Shown here piece by piece: positions 1,204 to 37,493 of a stretch of DNA of 47,508 bases. The notes beneath the pieces are model-generated. The model saw only the letters and a list, made by a program, of their open reading frames with translations. It was not told where the DNA came from and ran no database searches. The position numbers were made by a program, and so were the translations under genes. Source of the stretch: Candidatus Levybacteria bacterium RIFCSPLOWO2_02_FULL_37_18 (GTDB lineage Bacteria > Patescibacteriota > Microgenomatia > Levybacterales > UBA12049); NCBI GenBank assembly GCA_001784115.1, contig MFPD01000018.1:1-47508 (forward strand), in the 5' to 3' direction. Position 1 is the first letter of the stretch; each line of letters starts with the position of its first letter.

Positions 1204-3581
1204 TATAATCTAGCCCGTTGTGCTATCTCCGCTTCCACGACATTCACGTCGCGGGCATATTTGAGGCGTGATAGCTCTTTAATGAGCTCTGCGACACGGG
1301 GGTTAGCAAGCTTTTTCTCATTGGTTAAATCACGAGTTAGGTCCATGGAAAACGGCGGGACAGGCTCACCACCAACAATAGTCTTAATATAGGTGTTAAA
1401 CCGTTCGATATTAATTAAATCCGCTTCGTTAAATGTTGGCTGGAATTCATGCTGAAGGTAATTTGCATCCGTAACTCCAACTCTAAATGATACGACCGAA
1501 CCAACATTGCCAAAAATAGCATTTTTAACTTCTTCTTCCATTTGTCCGATAAACTGATTGGCAACAATTAAGTTAAGCTTGTACTTTCTCGCCTCAGACA
1601 AAATCTGAGCAAAATCAGGCGTGGCAAAATTTTGGAACTCGTCAACGTATAGAAAAAAATCCTGCCTCTGTTCTTTAGGAATATCCTGCCTGCTCATGGC
1701 CGCAACAAGAATTTTAGGAACAAGAACCAAACCAAGAAAGCTACTATTCTCTTCTCCGATTCGCCCTTTGGAAAGATTAATAAGTAAAATTTTTCTCTCG
1801 TCCATAACTTTTCTAAAATTAAACGCGCTGTCGGATTGGCCGATAATATTTCGAATCATTTTATTGGTAACAAATCGTCCAAACTTGGAAACAATGTAAT
1901 CCAAGACTTCTGACTTGTGAAAATCCGACGTCTGGGCGATCTGGTCTGTCCAATAACGCCTGACAATCGGGTCACTCACTTTGGGCAGTAATTCCTGGAC
2001 AAAGGCCGCATCGGTTAACACACGCACAACCTCTATAAACGTGTTTCCTTTCTCTGACATAACAGTTAACATTGCGTTTCTGATTGCGTGCTCAAACCGG
2101 GGTCCAATTATTCCTGTTTGATGAGGATCAAATAATTTGTACATGAGTCCTATGATGGAAGAAACTACATAATGTTTTTGCTCCTCGGTTGCTGCTTCCA
2201 ACATGTTAAAACCCATGGGACGCTGGGTATCCGAAGGGTCAAATAAAATTACTTCTTCTGCTCTTTGGGGCGGAATCATGGGTAAAACATCCTCGATTAA
2301 GTCTCCATGCGGGTCAATTACCGCCAAACCCTGGCCGCTTCGAATGTCTTGCATAATCATGTCTTTTAAGAACTCTGATTTACCAGTGCCTGTTTTGCCT
2401 ATTATATACATGTGTCTTCGTCTGTCATCCAAAGACATATACACAGGCTTGGAAAGACCCCTGTACGTACTTTTTCCTAAGTACAGTCCCGAGTCTGGGA
2501 CTTGGGCCGGTGCGGGAGCTCGCTTTGAAGTAATCCAATGGATATGATGTGTGGCAACACTTTTATTGGGCAAGTGGAAAATCGTTGCCAATTCTTCTGA
2601 GGTTAGTAATGATTTTTGACCCCTGATAGGCATATAACGATAAATAAAATCATTCATGAATAACCCTTTAAAGCGGTGTTTATTGCTTGTAAAAGAATTA
2701 ATGCCGTCAAACTGGGCAAATGCGCTTTTTATATTATTTAAATGCGCTTTTGCAGCTTCTTGGGTAGTTGAGGAAACTACCATCCGAATCACAACTTTAA
2801 ACCCCGGTTTACCGATTTTATTTTCGATTGCTTCTAATTCTTTTGCGTCCGAAGAATATTTCGCAGTCTCAGGATTTGCTTCTGTTTTCTTAACATGGGC
2901 AATATGGTTTCTGCCATGCTCTTTCCATTTACCCGAAGCAGGCTCAACCAAAATTTGAATTGTCGCTCCCTCGCCTTCTGTCATTTTTGCCAGTACCGAG
3001 GTAATCGAAGACAAAGGATCTGTTGGCAAATCTTTAAATACCTTAATTGGTACGTATTCATGTCCTTTTGTTTTTAATGACGTAAAAGCAACTTTTCCTG
3101 TTTCTGAAAATATATTGTACTCATTGCCTAAGATATATTTTTTTCCCTGTCCTTCTTCTACAACAGTGATTTCCGCATCCGGATACGCGCCGTTTATTTG
3201 TTTTTCTACCATGTCCCGCAATTTTTGAGGTATGTAGATAAAAAATCGGATGTCTCCCGGAAGACCGGCAATTTCAAAACCAATATGAGGCTGGTGTTTT
3301 AAAAAAGAAAACCTTCCTCCCTCGTAAAGTGAAGCAAACGAAGCAAACATTTGCTCTGCTGCGTCTATTTTTATTTCATTATCCCTTGGCAGGGCAACTT
3401 GAAGAAGTACGCTATGGAGCGAGCGATCTTCCCTGTCTTTATTTCTATACCAAAGAACAAACAGGTATCCAAGTCCCCATAAAAGAAATGCTGCAATAAT
3501 CGCAGCAAACAACCCAAAAGTCAGAGCGATTAATAAATTTGTTAATGCATCAAGTGAAAAGGTTTGAATAGTAAGATTCAT
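1203..3581 (-). CDS. TraG/VirD4-like type IV secretion coupling ATPase
   Basis: This is a 792-residue membrane-anchored P-loop ATPase. A hydrophobic segment near residues 12-42 is the membrane anchor. Walker A is GKTGTGKSEF (about 394-403), and HGDLIEDVL follows it as in VirD4/TraD-type proteins. Walker B is FFLYVDEFQNFATP (about 640-653), followed by a sensor-like NLIVANQFIGQM. Residues 45-370 form an extended N-terminal region with no motif I recognise. In known relatives such proteins feed DNA or protein substrates to a type IV secretion channel or drive DNA transfer. It is the last gene of a minus-strand group behind two unknown proteins. The VirB2-like proteins at 45-47 kb would be natural partners but are far away. 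Confidence 0.8.
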   Translation of the reverse strand: MNLTIQTFSLDALTNLLIALTFGLFAAIIAAFLLWGLGYLFVLWYRNKDREDRSLHSVLLQVALPRDNEIKIDAAEQMFASFASLYEGGRFSFLKHQPHIGFEIAGLPGDIRFFIYIPQKLRDMVEKQINGAYPDAEITVVEEGQGKKYILGNEYNIFSETGKVAFTSLKTKGHEYVPIKVFKDLPTDPLSSITSVLAKMTEGEGATIQILVEPASGKWKEHGRNHIAHVKKTEANPETAKYSSDAKELEAIENKIGKPGFKVVIRMVVSSTTQEAAKAHLNNIKSAFAQFDGINSFTSNKHRFKGLFMNDFIYRYMPIRGQKSLLTSEELATIFHLPNKSVATHHIHWITSKRAPAPAQVPDSGLYLGKSTYRGLSKPVYMSLDDRRRHMYIIGKTGTGKSEFLKDMIMQDIRSGQGLAVIDPHGDLIEDVLPMIPPQRAEEVILFDPSDTQRPMGFNMLEAATEEQKHYVVSSIIGLMYKLFDPHQTGIIGPRFEHAIRNAMLTVMSEKGNTFIEVVRVLTDAAFVQELLPKVSDPIVRRYWTDQIAQTSDFHKSEVLDYIVSKFGRFVTNKMIRNIIGQSDSAFNFRKVMDERKILLINLSKGRIGEENSSFLGLVLVPKILVAAMSRQDIPKEQRQDFFLYVDEFQNFATPDFAQILSEARKYKLNLIVANQFIGQMEEEVKNAIFGNVGSVVSFRVGVTDANYLQHEFQPTFNEADLINIERFNTYIKTIVGGEPVPPFSMDLTRDLTNEKKLANPRVAELIKELSRLKYARDVNVVEAEIAQRARL

Positions 3582-3592
3582 AAGTTCATAAT

Positions 3593-3622
3593 GTCATTCC
3601 GAGCAAAGCGAGGAATCTCTGA
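3593..3622 (+). repeat. Partial palindromic element (GTCATTCCGAG type)
   Basis: GTCATTCCGAGCAAAGCGAG followed by GAATCTC is one arm and the loop of the palindromic family that recurs across this window. It fills the gap between the 142-aa gene stop and the ATPase start. Confidence 0.6.
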
Positions 3623-3626
3623 TTCG

Positions 3627-4055
3627 TCACTTTTTTTCAGCATCTTTTTCTTTTTGTCTTTTCAGTTTTTTCAACACTAAAGCTGTCCAATATCTAAGAG
3701 AATCTCTCCATGAGGTTCTTGCTATTGTTGCTTGTGCCTGATCAATTGTCCCTGGAACCGAACTTGTACCAGCCTGAGGGAAGGCTGGAACAGGTGTTGA
3801 TTCTGCTGCATATTGAACAAGTCTTGGATCAGCTAACGTAAGATCAGGTCTTTCAGGCGTAGCTTCCACTCCATGCTCTTTTAATTCAGGCGGAACAACG
3901 ACCTCTTGATTTGAAGACCTAACTACTTCTTCTTGTTCTCGTCTTACCACTCCAAGGGTTTCTACAGGAACTTGTGGGGCAACAGAAGGCACAACCGGAT
4001 CTACCGATGTTGTTGGTTGTGAAACTGGTGGTTTAACTACCGCGTCTTCCGCCAT
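3627..4055 (-). CDS. Proline-rich low-complexity protein with basic C-terminus, unknown
   Basis: This 142-residue protein has no signal peptide or membrane helix. Residues 1-100 are rich in Pro, Val, Thr and Glu and look disordered. A short ordered block TSWRDSLRYWTALVLKKLKRQ (about 112-132) is followed by a lysine-rich tail. The -10-like box TATGAT lies six bases before the ATG, so the mRNA would be leaderless and the gene has its own promoter. It lies between the 464-aa gene and the secretion ATPase, both on the same strand, which suggests a shared process. I do not recognise a function. Confidence 0.6.
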   Translation of the reverse strand: MAEDAVVKPPVSQPTTSVDPVVPSVAPQVPVETLGVVRREQEEVVRSSNQEVVVPPELKEHGVEATPERPDLTLADPRLVQYAAESTPVPAFPQAGTSSVPGTIDQAQATIARTSWRDSLRYWTALVLKKLKRQKEKDAEKK

Positions 4056-4075
4056 ATATTCATCATATCATGCCC

Positions 4076-4112
4076 CTTCTACTTTTTCTACTTTGTTGTC
4101 TACTTCTTCAAG
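4076..4112 (-). repeat. GTAGA word array
   Basis: GTAGA units on the minus strand (GTAGACAACAAAGTAGAAAA...) occupy the gap between the 464-aa and 142-aa genes, the same word as around the four-helix fragment. Confidence 0.45.
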
Positions 4113-4117
4113 TTTTT

Positions 4118-5512
4118 TCATTTGCAAACAGGCATTCCTTCTTCCTCTGCCTTCTTTTTTGTTAAACCGCATTTCTGGCATGCACCGTCTCCAATAGGTC
4201 CATCCGCTTTCCACCCACAAACACACTCAAACCATTCTCCATCGTCATCTCCACCAAGAATAGTCTTAAATGCCCTATTAAATTGATACGCAAATGAACG
4301 TTTATCTTTTGTTCCTCCTCCGGCACAGCCTGGAATCTTTGCCACATTTCTTAAAGCTCCGCCAAACGAATACCCATCCATGAGTCTCGGATCAAAAGGA
4401 ATAACGTTTTGGGGAAGTTCTGGGTATAACGTACGGATTTTCTTTTCTTCTTCTTTTCTTAGCACATAACGCGAAAGCCGAAGGATTGTTGCCGCAAGAG
4501 CTTCTTTTACATTTTTATACGACCAGTCCTTTAAGCTTCTTGAATAATCAACCCACTGATTTATAAATGTTTTTGTTGCATCATCATAATCCCACAGCTT
4601 ATTCCAGTCTTTAGCCGCCGCAAGTACGTCATCAATAGTTTTATCCCGATAAATTCGACGGGTATTCTTTTTGGCTCTTATTTTCGCCATTATCTCAACT
4701 ATATCTTCTATTTGAGTTACTGTTGAACCGTCAAAAAGTGCTGGGTTTGCCATAAAATCTTCGGGAGAAGAATCTTTGGTAAGATGCGGGTCTTTCTGAC
4801 CTGACAACGTATAAAGCCTTGTCATCAACTCTCCATGTTCTTGATAATCAAAATCATTACAAATAGTATACGTAGGAATGTCTTCTCCATTTTCTTGCAT
4901 TTTCAAAACAGTAAGACGTGACTCCGGGTACTTAATCATAACTCCATCTTCATCGGGAAGTCCGTCTCCGTGAGTACTATTTACTACCGCAAGCCGGCCG
5001 ATTTTAAAAAATGGCGCTATCTTATTAACATAGGTATCATAGACAACGCCATTTCGTTCTTTTTTAGAAAGTGTTTCTGCGAGATTAAACCCTGCACCAT
5101 GCAAAGGATCTTTTAATATATATCTTCCGTTTTCAAATCTGAATCTTAAAAGTCCTGGAAGGACCGGATCTTGCACCAAATATTCACCTATCCAGCTTCT
5201 TAATGAATATTCCGTAAGACTTATCCAGAGTTCTTTTTTTCTTTCCAAACTTAAATCTTTTAATTTAGGAGAATCTAAAAATCCCATCTGGTACCCAAGC
5301 ATAAACCCGACTCCCGGTAAATCAACCCAGTTTTTGGGGAGTTTTTCTTTTTGCCAATTATTTCTAAGATGATCTATTTCTTCCTGAAGATTCCTCTCTA
5401 GAAACGTTAACTCTTTATTGTCATGCTGAACTTGATTCAGCATCTTATTGGATCCTGAAATAAATTCAGGATGACGATAGGAAGATTCTCTTTCTAAAAC
5501 TGCAACTGCCAT
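4118..5512 (-). CDS. Unknown 464-aa protein with C-terminal zinc ribbon and N-terminal repeat insertion
   Basis: I do not recognise the family. The protein appears soluble. The C-terminus carries ECVCGW and CQKCG (about residues 437-456), four cysteines spaced as a small zinc ribbon; an extra CAGGG lies near residue 401. Residues about 13-31 (HPEFISGS, MLNQVQHD) are the translation of a palindromic repeat (5420-5475) inserted in frame near the N-terminus. The real conserved protein probably begins around LTFLERNLQEEID. AAGGAG sits five bases before the ATG at 5512, so translation is Shine-Dalgarno led within the operon, and the start overlaps the end of the adenosyltransferase gene by 19 bases. 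Confidence 0.6.
   Translation of the reverse strand: MAVAVLERESSYRHPEFISGSNKMLNQVQHDNKELTFLERNLQEEIDHLRNNWQKEKLPKNWVDLPGVGFMLGYQMGFLDSPKLKDLSLERKKELWISLTEYSLRSWIGEYLVQDPVLPGLLRFRFENGRYILKDPLHGAGFNLAETLSKKERNGVVYDTYVNKIAPFFKIGRLAVVNSTHGDGLPDEDGVMIKYPESRLTVLKMQENGEDIPTYTICNDFDYQEHGELMTRLYTLSGQKDPHLTKDSSPEDFMANPALFDGSTVTQIEDIVEIMAKIRAKKNTRRIYRDKTIDDVLAAAKDWNKLWDYDDATKTFINQWVDYSRSLKDWSYKNVKEALAATILRLSRYVLRKEEEKKIRTLYPELPQNVIPFDPRLMDGYSFGGALRNVAKIPGCAGGGTKDKRSFAYQFNRAFKTILGGDDDGEWFECVCGWKADGPIGDGACQKCGLTKKKAEEEGMPVCK
5420..5475 (+). repeat. Palindromic element inside the 464-aa gene
   Basis: The unit runs from GTCATGCTGAACTTG to TTCAGGATGAC, with nested arms (TGCTGAACTTGATTCAGCA and GGATCCTGAA..TTCAGGATGAC). 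It reads through in frame as the protein's residues ~13-31. Confidence 0.75.
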
Positions 5513-6132
5513 ATTGTCTCCTTTTTCTTTTCTTTAAAATTTATAAATCTCGCCATGGTAAACAAAAGATCTGAAAGTCGATTCATGTAGACAATAATGT
5601 CAGGAGTAACCTTCTCATTCTCCGAAAGTTCAATAATCCGTCTCTCCGCCCGCCTGGCTATTGTCCGGCATACATGCAATTGTGAACCTGTTTTACCAAC
5701 ACCGGGCAAAATAAAACACTGAAAATCAGGGATTACTTCTGCCATCTTGTCTATGAGTTTTTCGAAGCTTTGAACTCTTTTCTCTAAGAATTCCGAAGTT
5801 TCTTTGGGATACTTAGGATTGGGATTTGCAATCGATGCTCCAATATCAAAAAGGTCATGCTGAACTTGATTCAGCATCTTTTTAACTTTTGAACTGTAAT
5901 CCTGCCTGCCGGCAGGCAAGGTTTGACTTTTGCCTTTTGACTTTTGAATTTCCGCAATTACTACTCCGATTGCGCTACTGAGCTCATCAACAGTCCCCAC
6001 TGCTTCTATTCGAAGGCTAAACTTAGGAACCCGTTTTCCACCAAACAATGAAGTTATACCTTTATCTCCTGTTTTGGTATACACTTTTACTTTTTGATAC
6101 TCCCGTTGATCTTTAGTTTTTCGTTTTGTCAT
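5494..6132 (-). CDS. Cob(I)yrinic acid a,c-diamide / cobalamin adenosyltransferase, PduO type
   Basis: This 212-residue enzyme transfers the 5'-deoxyadenosyl group of ATP to cob(I)alamin, making coenzyme B12. KVYTKTGDKGITSLFGG (about residues 15-31) is the ATP-binding signature, VGTVDELSSAIG (45-56) is the conserved second motif and CRTIARRAERRI (about 155-166) is the arginine-rich helix. A compound insertion replaces the loop at about residues 63-92: a repeat-word stretch (KSKGKSQ), the peptide LPAGRQ from a GC palindrome, and MLNQVQHD from a palindromic-element half. Removing it gives a normal-sized enzyme. The product is the cofactor of the class II ribonucleotide reductase encoded just upstream. 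It overlaps its neighbours at both ends. Confidence 0.85.
   Translation of the reverse strand: MTKRKTKDQREYQKVKVYTKTGDKGITSLFGGKRVPKFSLRIEAVGTVDELSSAIGVVIAEIQKSKGKSQTLPAGRQDYSSKVKKMLNQVQHDLFDIGASIANPNPKYPKETSEFLEKRVQSFEKLIDKMAEVIPDFQCFILPGVGKTGSQLHVCRTIARRAERRIIELSENEKVTPDIIVYMNRLSDLLFTMARFINFKEKKKETIWQLQF
5854..5955 (+). repeat. Compound repeat insertion inside the adenosyltransferase gene
   Basis: From left to right on the plus strand there is a half element GTCATGCTGAACTTGATTCAGC (5854-5879), a word 'TTAACTTTTGAACTG', the GC palindrome CCTGCCTGCCGGCAGGCAAG (5901-5920) and a word array of TTTGACTTTTG type (5921-5955). All are read through in frame. Confidence 0.75.
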
Positions 6133-6673
6133 TTTTTCTTGTCATTCCGGACTTGATCAGGAATCTGTATGGATCCCGAATCGAGATCAGGATGACATTC
6201 TTAATGAATTCATAACTTCCAAAAAATACTCCTGTATAGAACAAATCCCCAAGGATTGTGTTCCGAAAGAATGGGAGGGCATACACATAGCATTGAACTA
6301 AACCCTGAAGAGTTTTTGGATATAGACTGCCAACTAGCCACACTCCAAAATTAGTGATTATAAAGAAAAGAACTGAAGATGCAAGTGTGCCTAAAATAAC
6401 GTTTTGAATTGACTTATGCTGTCGTATCCAAAGTCCTATGAGTCCTGTTAATAAAAAGCTTCCATACACAAACAAAATTGTGCTATGAAAACCAATAAAC
6501 AAGTCAGAAACAAACATTGCAAGTAATGGAACAATTAGCGCATATTTTTTATTTAAATACACTCCCCCAAACAAAGCCATCCCTGCAATTGGTGCAAAAT
6601 TTGGAGGATGCGGAAGGAGCCGTAGAAGTACGGCAAAGAGAATAATTGAAATTGGTGTAATAATCTTCTTCAT
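6113..6673 (-). CDS. Small polytopic membrane protein (DUF6580-like, possible transport component)
   Basis: The ORF track starts at 6715, but those 14 residues are repeat translation; the natural start is the ATG at 6673 (MKKIITPISIILFAVLLRLL). About five hydrophobic segments follow. HPPNFAPIAGMALFGGVYL (about 17-35) and the following YALIVPLLAMFVSDLFIG resemble the glycine-rich substrate-side helices of small ECF S-component-like proteins and the DUF6580 family. The last ~17 residues (DPYRFLIKSGMT...) are again repeat translation and overlap the adenosyltransferase start. Position in a riboswitch-led group with a cobalamin adenosyltransferase suggests corrinoid uptake. That role is inference and no energising ATPase is visible. 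Confidence 0.6.
   Translation of the reverse strand: MKKIITPISIILFAVLLRLLPHPPNFAPIAGMALFGGVYLNKKYALIVPLLAMFVSDLFIGFHSTILFVYGSFLLTGLIGLWIRQHKSIQNVILGTLASSVLFFIITNFGVWLVGSLYPKTLQGLVQCYVYALPFFRNTILGDLFYTGVFFGSYEFIKNVILISIRDPYRFLIKSGMTRKNDKTKN
6131..6200 (+). repeat. Palindromic element at the junction of membrane-protein and adenosyltransferase genes
   Basis: The unit runs from GTCATTCCGGACTTGATC through GGATCCCGAATCGAGATC to AGGATGAC. It supplies the C-terminal residues of the DUF6580-like protein. Confidence 0.7.
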
Positions 6674-6681
6674 ATAAAATT

Positions 6682-6780
6682 GTCGTCCTGAACCTGATTC
6701 AGAATCCCGAAACAAGTTCGGGACAGCGTCCTTGATGCTGAAATACCCTGCCTGCCGGCAGGTAGGAATTCAGCATGATA
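6682..6780 (+). repeat. Compound palindromic repeats between DUF4430 and membrane-protein genes
   Basis: Adjacent units here are CTGAACCTGATTCAG, CCCGAAACAAGTTCGGGAC, and a GATGCTGAA...TTCAGCAT hairpin enclosing the GC palindrome CCTGCCTGCCGGCAGGTAGG (6747-6766). The GC palindrome appears to sit inside the other element, a nested arrangement. Confidence 0.65.
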
Positions 6781-6784
6781 AGGA

Positions 6785-7165
6785 TTAGTATTTCTCTATC
6801 TTCCATTCGACTACGTCTCCATCTTTCGTCTTATAATCAGCAGGTCCTACATCAGACAACTTTCCATTTACATAAAACGCCCAATATTCATGCTTTTGAG
6901 CATCTGCTTTTCTGCCATTGATTGAAACCACCAATCCTGAACTATCCTTTTCAATTTCTGTTTTTTCTTTGAGGAGTGTTCATGCATCTTTTCCCGTTTG
7001 TCCTTTGTATGAGAATTGGTCTTGAGTTGTCTTTATGATTGTTGGTCGAACAGTCGAAGAAACAATAATCTGTTCAACAATACGTTTCTTACTATTGTTC
7101 TTAACCCAGACCAACCCGAAAACTAAAATAACAACTCCTATCCCAATGAATATTTTCTTTTTCAT
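6785..7165 (-). pseudogene. DUF4430 (transcobalamin-like) secreted protein interrupted by one in-frame UGA
   Basis: Starting at the ATG at 7165 the protein opens MKKKIFIGIGVVILVFGLVWV, a signal anchor, and reaches YKGQTGKDA before TGA at 6982-6980. The same frame then continues without a shift for about 64 codons: TLLKEKTEIEKD, then EYWAFYVNGKLSDVGPADY and DGDVVEWKIEKY, ending at TAA (6787-6785). YWaFYVNGk...G.adY...dGD.veW is the core of DUF4430, a fold shared with the beta domain of eukaryotic B12 carriers. Relatives usually have Leu where the UGA stands, so one TTA-to-TGA change explains it. A cobalamin riboswitch lies directly upstream, supporting a role in B12 capture. It may be a dead gene, a sequencing error or readthrough. 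Confidence 0.7.
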
Positions 7166-7225: not shown

Positions 7226-7237
7226 ACTACTACATGG

Positions 7238-7312
7238 GGCAGTATAGTTTTCTGGCTTTACAGTTGCGGCACAGCCACGGATTTTCACCGTGATTCCCTA
7301 TACAAACGTATA
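7238..7312 (-). ncRNA. Cobalamin riboswitch
   Basis: The minus strand contains GGTGAAAATCCGTGGCTGTG followed by CCGCAACTGTAA and then GCCAGAAAACTATACTGCC. These match the B12-box core (GGTgAAAATCC, CCgCaACTGT, GCCAG...CTGCC). GTATAG before the core can pair with CTATAC after it to close a stem. It lies upstream of the DUF4430 gene, the membrane protein and the adenosyltransferase. A -10-like TATAAA lies just before it. Confidence 0.85.
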
Positions 7313-7343
7313 TACTTTATAATTTTTACTTTTGAACTGTAAT

Positions 7344-7396: not shown

Positions 7397-9856
7397 TTAG
7401 CACGCTGAATATCCGCATGAATAACATTTCTGGCAACCTTCTTCATAAGCTAAGCTTCCTCCGCCGCACTCAGGACAGAGGTCAAACAAACTCGTGTTTG
7501 ATACGCTTACGGCAAACGTTTCTTCTCTTCCATCGATTGCCAGCTGTTGCACAGGCGGGTCTATATCTGGAGCAATTGCGCCATTTGAACCACTTATCAG
7601 ACGTTCGTTTGTATGCCCGTTATTCTGCTTTGCAGAACCATTTGACCCTTCTCCTGCAACCGGTGTTGCCAACGGCTTATCTTCTACAAACCCATTCACT
7701 CGAAACCCGCAGTATTTGGCAATAACTTTAGCAACCGCATCGGGAAGCGAACGCACTTTATTTTCTCCAAATCCTACACTTCGCGCTCCTCCAAGTCCAG
7801 ATAATTCAGAAACTATTTTTCTCATTCTCTCTCTGGCCGGTACCGGACTTGAAAGTCTTAAAAATACCGAAATGACCCTTCCCAAAGCATCTGCCATCGC
7901 AGCAACGTCAGAGCCTGATTTGCCGTTAGTGATAAATACCTCAAAAGGTTTGCCTTCCTTGTGATTTATAGTGACATACATTTTCCCTACCGGGCTTTCC
8001 ACTTGATACGTTACTCCTTCAACCACCATGGGTCGTGGCACAAACGGATCGGTAGGAGCTTTTACTACTGGTTGAATTTCTTTCTTTTCTTCTTTTTTCT
8101 CGGAAACACGTTCTAAGATCGATTGCCTACTTCCATCTCTCATGTACGTTATCCCTTTGCAACCCAAGTCGTACGCTAGCATATATAATTTTTTTACATC
8201 CTCAACTGTATGGACACTGGGCGCATTGACTGTTTTTGAAATCGACGCATCAACGTATTTTTGCACAGTAGCTTGAACTCTGACATGATCTTCCGGAGTT
8301 AAGTCATTTGCCGCGACAAAATAATCAGGTCGGGCTTCTTGAGGATGTGCTTTTCTCCACTGCCCATACAAATGGTGATATACGAGTTGCTTACCAAGTC
8401 TACCCATGTGATAGTATTCAAATTCATACACCGGCTCAATTCCGGAAGAAGCAGCGGAGAGCAAGCTCGTTGTCCCTGTTGGAGCAGCTTGTAAAAGCAT
8501 TGAGTTTCGAATACCGTATTTTTTCATCTTACTCTTAATCTCTTCGGGTAACTGACTGATAAAATGTCCTTCCAGGTGTTTTTTAATATTAATTTTTGGG
8601 AAAGGTCCTTTTTCGCGGGCAATAGCAATTGACTCATCATACGCAACATCTCTGATGGTCTTGTAAATCTTATCTATAACAGGCACTACTTCTTCAGACC
8701 CGTAGCGAAGATGCATTTTAATCAAAGCATCTGCAAGTCCTAATGTACCAAGACCAATTCGCCGTTCTCCTTCTCTTTGCATTTGTTTTATTTCCGGGAA
8801 AACATACTGGTCTGCATCAACAACGTCATCCTGGAACCTAACCCCGATTCGGGCATGAACAGCTAGAGCCTCATAATCCATTTCTCCCGGCTTATCGACT
8901 TCGTATCCTTTCACAAAAGCAGAAAGGTTGAGTGAAGCTAAATTACAAACTCCCCAGGCTGGAAGTCCCTCTTCACCACATGGATTTACGCAATTAATCG
9001 TATTCCAATACCAGTTGTTGTACCACTTGTTGTAGCGCTCCATAAACACAAGTCCCGGTTCAGCCGAACGCCAAGCAGCAGTACAAATAAGATCCCACAA
9101 ATACCTGGCTTTTACCGTCTTATATACTTTTACTTTTTTACCTAAAGCTGTCCAGTGATCCAATATTCCATCCCACTTTTCATCGTACTGCGGATCCGAA
9201 GTATCCGGGAAAACCAAATCCCAATCCGCGTCTTTTTTGACCGCTTCCATGAAGGAATCGGAGACGCAAATAGAAAGGTTTGCACCGTTAATGCGGGTTA
9301 AGTCCTGCTTGACGGTAATGAATTCTTCGATATCCGGATGCCAATCCCACAGCATAAGCATTAAAGCACCTCTCCGGGAGCCTCCTTGTTGAATAATGTC
9401 ATGCGTTGCCAAAGAATACATTCCCGCCCAGTTAATAGGCCCAGATGAAAACCCGTTGACTTTTTTAACCCGTGCCCCCCGTGGCCGAAGAGAAGATATA
9501 TTAACCCCTACCCCACCGCCCCGCGCCATAATTTCTATCATGGCTTTTAAGTTATCTAGTATTCCATCCCGTGAGTCTTTTGGAGAAGGAATAACAAAGC
9601 AGTTATAAAATGTCACCCCGTACCCAGTTCCTGCTCCAGCAAGAACACGACCGCCGGGGACGAATTTAAAATCCTCCATGGCGTTATAAAACGTATCTTC
9701 CCATTTTTTTCTGACCTCTTTTTTCTCAACCGAAGCAATCCTCTTTGCAATTCTTCTCCACATTTCTTCAGGAGTTTGCTCAATGGGATTACCCTCTTTA
9801 TCTTTTAAAGAGTACCTGTCCAAAAATACTTTTTCCCTGACACCTTCAAGCTTCAT
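7397..9856 (-). CDS. nrdJ: Adenosylcobalamin-dependent ribonucleotide reductase (class II)
   Basis: This 819-residue enzyme reduces ribonucleotides to deoxyribonucleotides using a B12-derived radical. FKFVPGGRVLAGAGT (about residues 53-67) and FYNCFVIPSPKDSRDG (about 81-96) are class II landmarks, with the first redox cysteine in FYNC. INCVNPCGEEGLPAWGVCNL carries the N-x-C-x-E radical site and the second redox cysteine. APTGTTSLLSAASSGIEP is the phosphate-binding stretch. The C-terminus ends in CPECGG...CQKCYSCGYSAC, the redox-shuttle and zinc cysteines. It lies downstream of nrdR (77-base gap) and close to the B12 salvage genes, which would supply its cofactor. The length is typical. Confidence 0.95.
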   Translation of the reverse strand: MKLEGVREKVFLDRYSLKDKEGNPIEQTPEEMWRRIAKRIASVEKKEVRKKWEDTFYNAMEDFKFVPGGRVLAGAGTGYGVTFYNCFVIPSPKDSRDGILDNLKAMIEIMARGGGVGVNISSLRPRGARVKKVNGFSSGPINWAGMYSLATHDIIQQGGSRRGALMLMLWDWHPDIEEFITVKQDLTRINGANLSICVSDSFMEAVKKDADWDLVFPDTSDPQYDEKWDGILDHWTALGKKVKVYKTVKARYLWDLICTAAWRSAEPGLVFMERYNKWYNNWYWNTINCVNPCGEEGLPAWGVCNLASLNLSAFVKGYEVDKPGEMDYEALAVHARIGVRFQDDVVDADQYVFPEIKQMQREGERRIGLGTLGLADALIKMHLRYGSEEVVPVIDKIYKTIRDVAYDESIAIAREKGPFPKINIKKHLEGHFISQLPEEIKSKMKKYGIRNSMLLQAAPTGTTSLLSAASSGIEPVYEFEYYHMGRLGKQLVYHHLYGQWRKAHPQEARPDYFVAANDLTPEDHVRVQATVQKYVDASISKTVNAPSVHTVEDVKKLYMLAYDLGCKGITYMRDGSRQSILERVSEKKEEKKEIQPVVKAPTDPFVPRPMVVEGVTYQVESPVGKMYVTINHKEGKPFEVFITNGKSGSDVAAMADALGRVISVFLRLSSPVPARERMRKIVSELSGLGGARSVGFGENKVRSLPDAVAKVIAKYCGFRVNGFVEDKPLATPVAGEGSNGSAKQNNGHTNERLISGSNGAIAPDIDPPVQQLAIDGREETFAVSVSNTSLFDLCPECGGGSLAYEEGCQKCYSCGYSAC

Positions 9857-9933: not shown

Positions 9934-10383
9934 TTATCCAATCAGCCGCTTTACTTCTTTTTCAAATTCTTCAACATCAACAAACCGTCTAAAAACGCTT
10001 GAAAAACGAATATATGCTACCTTATCAAGTTTTTTTAACCGATTTGCAACCATCTGGCCTATTTTTTTACTTTCCACTTCAACTGAATCTGAGCTTAATA
10101 ATTCCCGCTCCACCTCTGTTACTATTTTTTCAATTTCAGAAATCGGTACCGTAGTCTTTTCACACGCTTTTAATATTCCCGTCCGAAGTTTGTCTCTGTT
10201 AAACTGTTCTCTTTTTCCATCTCTTTTAATTACCAGTAAGTAGATATTCTCAACTCTTTCATATGTCGTAAACCGCTTTTGACAAGAAACGCATGCTCGT
10301 CTTCTTCGAATTGTTTCTAAGTCCTCGCTGTCTCGCGTTTCTACCACCTCTGTATCTTTGCTTCCGCAATACGGACACTTCAT
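9934..10383 (-). CDS. nrdR: Transcriptional repressor NrdR
   Basis: NrdR senses ATP/dATP through an ATP-cone and represses ribonucleotide reductase genes. The ORF track starts at 10401; MKCPYCGSKDTEVVETR at 10383 is the canonical start, giving 149 residues. The zinc ribbon is CPYCG...CVSCQKRF (about residues 3-35) with RRRRAC-type basic residues between, followed by TYERVE. The ATP-cone runs from about VIKRDGKREQFNRDKL to the VAYIRFSSVFRRF segment. It precedes nrdJ on the same strand, and its own promoter carries two NrdR boxes, so both autoregulation and control of nrdJ are expected. Confidence 0.95.
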   Translation of the reverse strand: MKCPYCGSKDTEVVETRDSEDLETIRRRRACVSCQKRFTTYERVENIYLLVIKRDGKREQFNRDKLRTGILKACEKTTVPISEIEKIVTEVERELLSSDSVEVESKKIGQMVANRLKKLDKVAYIRFSSVFRRFVDVEEFEKEVKRLIG

Positions 10384-10441
10384 AACAAAATCAAAAGTCA
10401 AAAGTAATTAATTTTGAATTTTATTTGTAATTTTGACTCAA

Positions 10442-37362: not shown

Positions 37363-37449
37363 TGGCGGAGGGTATGGGAGTCGAACCCATTAGACCCTTT
37401 CGGGTCACGGTTTAGCAAACCGTCCTCGTAACCGTCTGAGTCACCCTCC
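37363..37449 (-). tRNA. tRNA-Ser (anticodon GCU)
   Basis: On the minus strand the acceptor GGAGGGT/ACCCTCC, anticodon arm ACGGT-TTGCTAA-ACCGT with GCU at 34-36, and a long variable arm GACCC-GAAA-GGGTC define a class II serine tRNA. The discriminator is G and CCA follows directly, so CCA is encoded, unlike the tRNA-Ile at 859-930. Confidence 0.95.
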
Positions 37450-37493
37450 GTATCTTGATTATACCACGAACCGCTATTTGATACACTGTACGT

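Follow-up and report, generated by a model that had tools for sequence, protein, structure and literature searches.

A private in-frame UGA in the DUF4430 gene of a cobalamin riboswitch-controlled operon, probably a recent null allele

The gene for a DUF4430 protein, which follows a cobalamin riboswitch in a B12-salvage operon, is interrupted by a single in-frame UGA. Most probably (roughly 0.7) this codon is an ordinary premature stop, that is, a recent, lineage-private single-base nonsense mutation that is either fixed or segregating. A base error or minority variant in the assembly ranks second and functional readthrough third. The initial annotation had offered a null mutation, a polymorphism or a readthrough site; that set of possibilities is supported, and the tests point to a recent null allele rather than to programmed readthrough because the stop occurs in no relative and is accompanied by no stimulatory structure, while TAA interrupts a second gene of the genome and several relatives have no DUF4430 in the corresponding operon. 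The window, as used here, is the whole stretch of 47,508 nucleotides that was analyzed.

The interrupted gene lies on the minus strand at 6785–7165, from an ATG at 7165 that is preceded by a GAGGAG ribosome-binding site to a TAA at 6785–6787, and was delimited by its translation, its Pfam match and the family alignment. From 7165 to 6788 the frame runs for 126 codons before the TAA, and the sole stop inside it is the UGA at 6980–6982 (codon 62), after which 64 sense codons follow (6788–6979). Both the in-frame UGA and the continuation of the frame for about 64 codons had been claimed beforehand, and both are borne out by the sequence and its translation. If read through, the frame encodes 126 residues that form an N-terminal hydrophobic helix, then a linker, then a DUF4430 domain, which matches PF14478 over residues 60–124 with 60.2 bits against a curated cut-off of 23.8 (E = 2.7e-16). 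The UGA stands where this domain begins, so the product that precedes it is without a recognizable domain: positions 6983–7165 encode the membrane helix, the linker and the first domain residues, and the truncated 61-residue product gave no match when searched against Pfam. The DUF4430 core lies nearly whole in the 64 codons past the stop. Homologues in the family align along the entire frame with 39–55% identity, which indicates one gene with one stop and not a chance arrangement. Structure prediction for the read-through protein alone gave a pLDDT of 43, too low for the model to be of use, and a PDB sequence search returned no real relative.

Homologues were sought in 73 genomes at the level of the family and, using a profile, in 374 genomes of the class. 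The DUF4430 protein was found in 11 further family genomes, with 50 more matches outside the family, and an internal stop is present in neither set (0 of 11 and 0 of 50). The UGA thus appears private to this genome among the 61 other homologues compared, and the conservation of the stop in orthologues that would speak for programmed readthrough was not observed (0/61). The remark in the initial annotation that relatives usually have leucine at this position agrees with the codons found in the family, where ten of the 11 members carry Leu (CTC, three CTG, two TTG, two CTT, CTA and TTA) and one carries Met (ATG). A single-protein scan of genome contigs recovered one distant relative only, from Bacillaceae.

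The residues past the stop fit the family as well as those of intact members do. In leave-one-out profile scoring these 64 residues ranked second of 12 with 126.2 bits, and at the positions that are invariant in the other 11 proteins there is a single departure, from I to V. This absence of decay, which is the sole indication of the age of the stop, points to a recent event; an undecayed frame fits a recent mutation, an error, a polymorphism or functional readthrough equally.

Single nonsense codons arise in this genome at a low rate, whatever the type of stop. A coding-potential scan for in-frame stops across a 285-kb sample of the 1.11-Mb genome revealed one other convincing case, a TAA on the minus strand of contig 7 (G000, L057, 15404–15406) in the gene for a 435-residue protein. 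This protein is continuous in family relatives, which are uninterrupted and aligned over most of its length. That the second gene is broken by TAA and not by UGA argues against a UGA-specific decoding. The scan yielded many candidates, and most of those inspected proved to be successive genes or antisense frames.

The alternative that survives best is a base error in the assembly or consensus, or a minority strain variant that entered the consensus, in which case the gene would be intact in most cells. We regard this as unlikely. The assembly is fragmented (31 contigs for 1.11 Mb), there are two single in-frame stops within 285 kb, and the undecayed codons past the stop are what would be expected of it; however, a consensus sequence normally carries few single-base substitutions, and other frame-breaking changes were found in none of the 15 window genes checked.

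Functional low-level readthrough of the UGA, by near-cognate tRNA-Trp or otherwise, would supply a little full-length DUF4430 protein and is less probable again. In E. coli the leaky stop context is UGA-C, whereas here an A follows the UGA, and the RNA downstream shows no unusual stability (z of −0.43 and −0.91). The frame past the stop is undecayed, as readthrough would predict, and the tRNA-Trp of the genome has an A at position 24, the base that results from the Hirsh G24A mutation of E. coli tRNA-Trp, where it enables UGA readthrough (PMC13092985). The same A24 is however found in the tRNA-Trp of G005 (L147), the sole relative examined, so that it is no special adaptation of this genome. 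The genome also differs from the known cases of near-cognate readthrough by tRNA-Trp in that the anticodon stem here has the normal 5 base pairs instead of the 4 of the readthrough-prone state (PMC13092985), and in that it has no genome-wide set of UGA-interrupted genes; furthermore none of the 61 homologues shares the stop. A more specific version, in which the UGA has been retained as a leaky stop and rations the putative cobalamin-capture protein through near-cognate decoding by tRNA-Trp, is improbable. Were it true, the UGA would be a translational throttle beneath the riboswitch in a B12-controlled operon. No sign of recoding was found.

That a dedicated system reads the UGA as an amino acid, by selenocysteine insertion or genome-wide reassignment, is contradicted by the tests run and deserves almost no credence, even though some Patescibacteria, the probable phylum of this genome, reassign UGA to Gly and in one reported case to Trp (PMC13092985). 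Among long ORFs, UGA terminates 9 of the 35 that lie in the window and 50 of 212, about a quarter, in the 285-kb sample, as the initial annotation had held in stating that UGA ends other genes here, and prfB, encoding RF2, is intact (405 bits). A search of the genome for tRNA-Sec gave nothing above the gathering score, a UCA anticodon was absent among the tRNAs recovered (an incomplete list), and UCA-tRNA-like patterns in the sequence did not exceed the reversed control in number (67, compared with 83). The family has Leu or Met at the site, not Cys, Gly or Trp. The earlier exclusion of a code change therefore stands. The best tRNA-Sec match (37366–37450 of the window, minus strand) has a GCU anticodon and is a tRNA-Ser(GCU), not a suppressor. 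This tRNA-Ser gene (37366–37449, minus strand) has an encoded CCA and was missed by ARAGORN; it is hidden in the default Rfam scan because the tRNA-Sec model scores higher there, yet under its own cut-off.

For the recent null allele, translation would begin at 7165 and be ended by RF2 after 61 residues, leaving a product that would comprise an N-terminal membrane anchor and lack the DUF4430 domain. The case resembles an ordinary nonsense-interrupted gene in its lineage-private stop, its intact homologues, its otherwise undecayed frame and the loss of the accessory gene elsewhere, and no feature that departs from this was found. By itself the stop would be one more young null allele, and the operon is of more interest than the stop.

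The operon runs on the minus strand in the order NrdR, NrdJ, riboswitch, DUF4430, DUF6580 and cobalamin adenosyltransferase. The same order is common to most of the family members that bear DUF4430, with some riboswitches falling below the cut-off and some contigs ending. The NrdR repressor (9934–10386; TIGR00244, 187.4 bits) is followed by the adenosylcobalamin-dependent ribonucleotide reductase NrdJ (7397–9856; TIGR02504, 558.7 bits). NrdJ is the only PF02867 protein found in the genome; it is the sole ribonucleotide reductase (PF02867) detected in this bacterium of reduced genome, and the salvage operon feeds it. The riboswitch that the initial annotation had placed ahead of the DUF4430 gene is real: an AdoCbl-II (cobalamin) aptamer lies at 7237–7315 on the minus strand (RF01689, 45.6 bits; gathering score 36.5) and is the one copy above the cut-off in the genome. 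Past the interrupted gene lie an intact membrane protein, DUF6580 (6113–6673, minus strand; PF20221, 192.5 bits), and an intact cobalamin adenosyltransferase of the PduO type (5494–6132, minus strand; PF01923, 194.9 bits; TIGR00636, 178.6 bits).

In most of the relatives whose loci were retrieved, DUF6580 adjoins DUF4430; it is a probable component of a cobalamin transporter. It shows weak similarity, by way of a relative, to the S components of ECF transporters. No EcfT partner (PF02361) was found in the genome, and DUF6580 may act alone, as BtuM and other solitary B12 S components do. Domains of the DUF4430 (PF14478) type form the C-terminal part of vertebrate transcobalamin and intrinsic factor (PMC4350170), and from this kinship an anchored role in cobalamin capture is a natural inference: the domain would probably capture cobalamin on the outer side of the membrane to serve the DUF6580 transporter. 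The likeness to the vertebrate proteins consists in the 60-bit DUF4430 match and in the position of the gene, downstream of a cobalamin riboswitch within a B12 operon; unlike them, the form here is short, membrane-anchored and without the alpha-alpha barrel partner domain, and the copy in this genome is interrupted. With DUF6580, the adenosyltransferase and NrdJ all intact, the cell would probably continue to take up B12 in the absence of the capture protein, as several relatives lacking DUF4430 must.

Several relatives keep the operon without DUF4430, which suggests from gene content that its loss is tolerated and the protein not indispensable. In G017 the riboswitch runs directly into DUF6580 with no room for a DUF4430 gene, the stretch from NrdJ to DUF6580 yielded no DUF4430 in G018, G031 or G051, and G072 and G009 have a divergent form in its place; in G040 DUF4430 follows DUF6580 and neighbors a protein with an alpha-alpha toroid. 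The loss of DUF4430 is thus recurrent, and loss by nonsense mutation fits the pattern seen in these relatives, which have lost, replaced or moved DUF4430 yet kept the transporter-like DUF6580. The value of the interrupted gene lies in the support it gives to the view that the DUF4430 capture protein is the dispensable component of a conserved B12-salvage operon under riboswitch control; if confirmed, this would show which step in B12 uptake a cell can do without. As a possible hidden second copy of DUF4430 in the genome, the sole weak match lay inside a polynucleotide phosphorylase-like ORF and was rejected.

In G040 the operon (L150, 6004–8669) encodes DUF6580, DUF4430 and, next, an alpha-alpha toroid protein of the prenyltransferase type, so that both domain types of transcobalamin occur as separate neighboring bacterial genes. 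The NrdJ of several relatives carries intein-like in-frame inserts of about 350–400 codons, three of them at an NPC/GE site and one elsewhere (L102 at about 4978–6044, L106 at about 4186–5288, L099 at about 3146–4254 and L100 at about 4064–5277); the NrdJ of the window has none. Dispersed repeats, made up of a CTGCCGGCAGG palindrome and a KMLNQVQHD-type peptide element, occur in the window at about 5850–5945, about 5420–5500 and 6690–6790, that is within the adenosyltransferase frame, at the start of a gene for a protein of 464 residues and between DUF4430 and DUF6580, respectively. The 464-residue protein (4118–5512) has a Cys-rich C-terminal end and no Pfam or NCBIfam match, and also adjoins the adenosyltransferase in some relatives (L096, L098 and L103).
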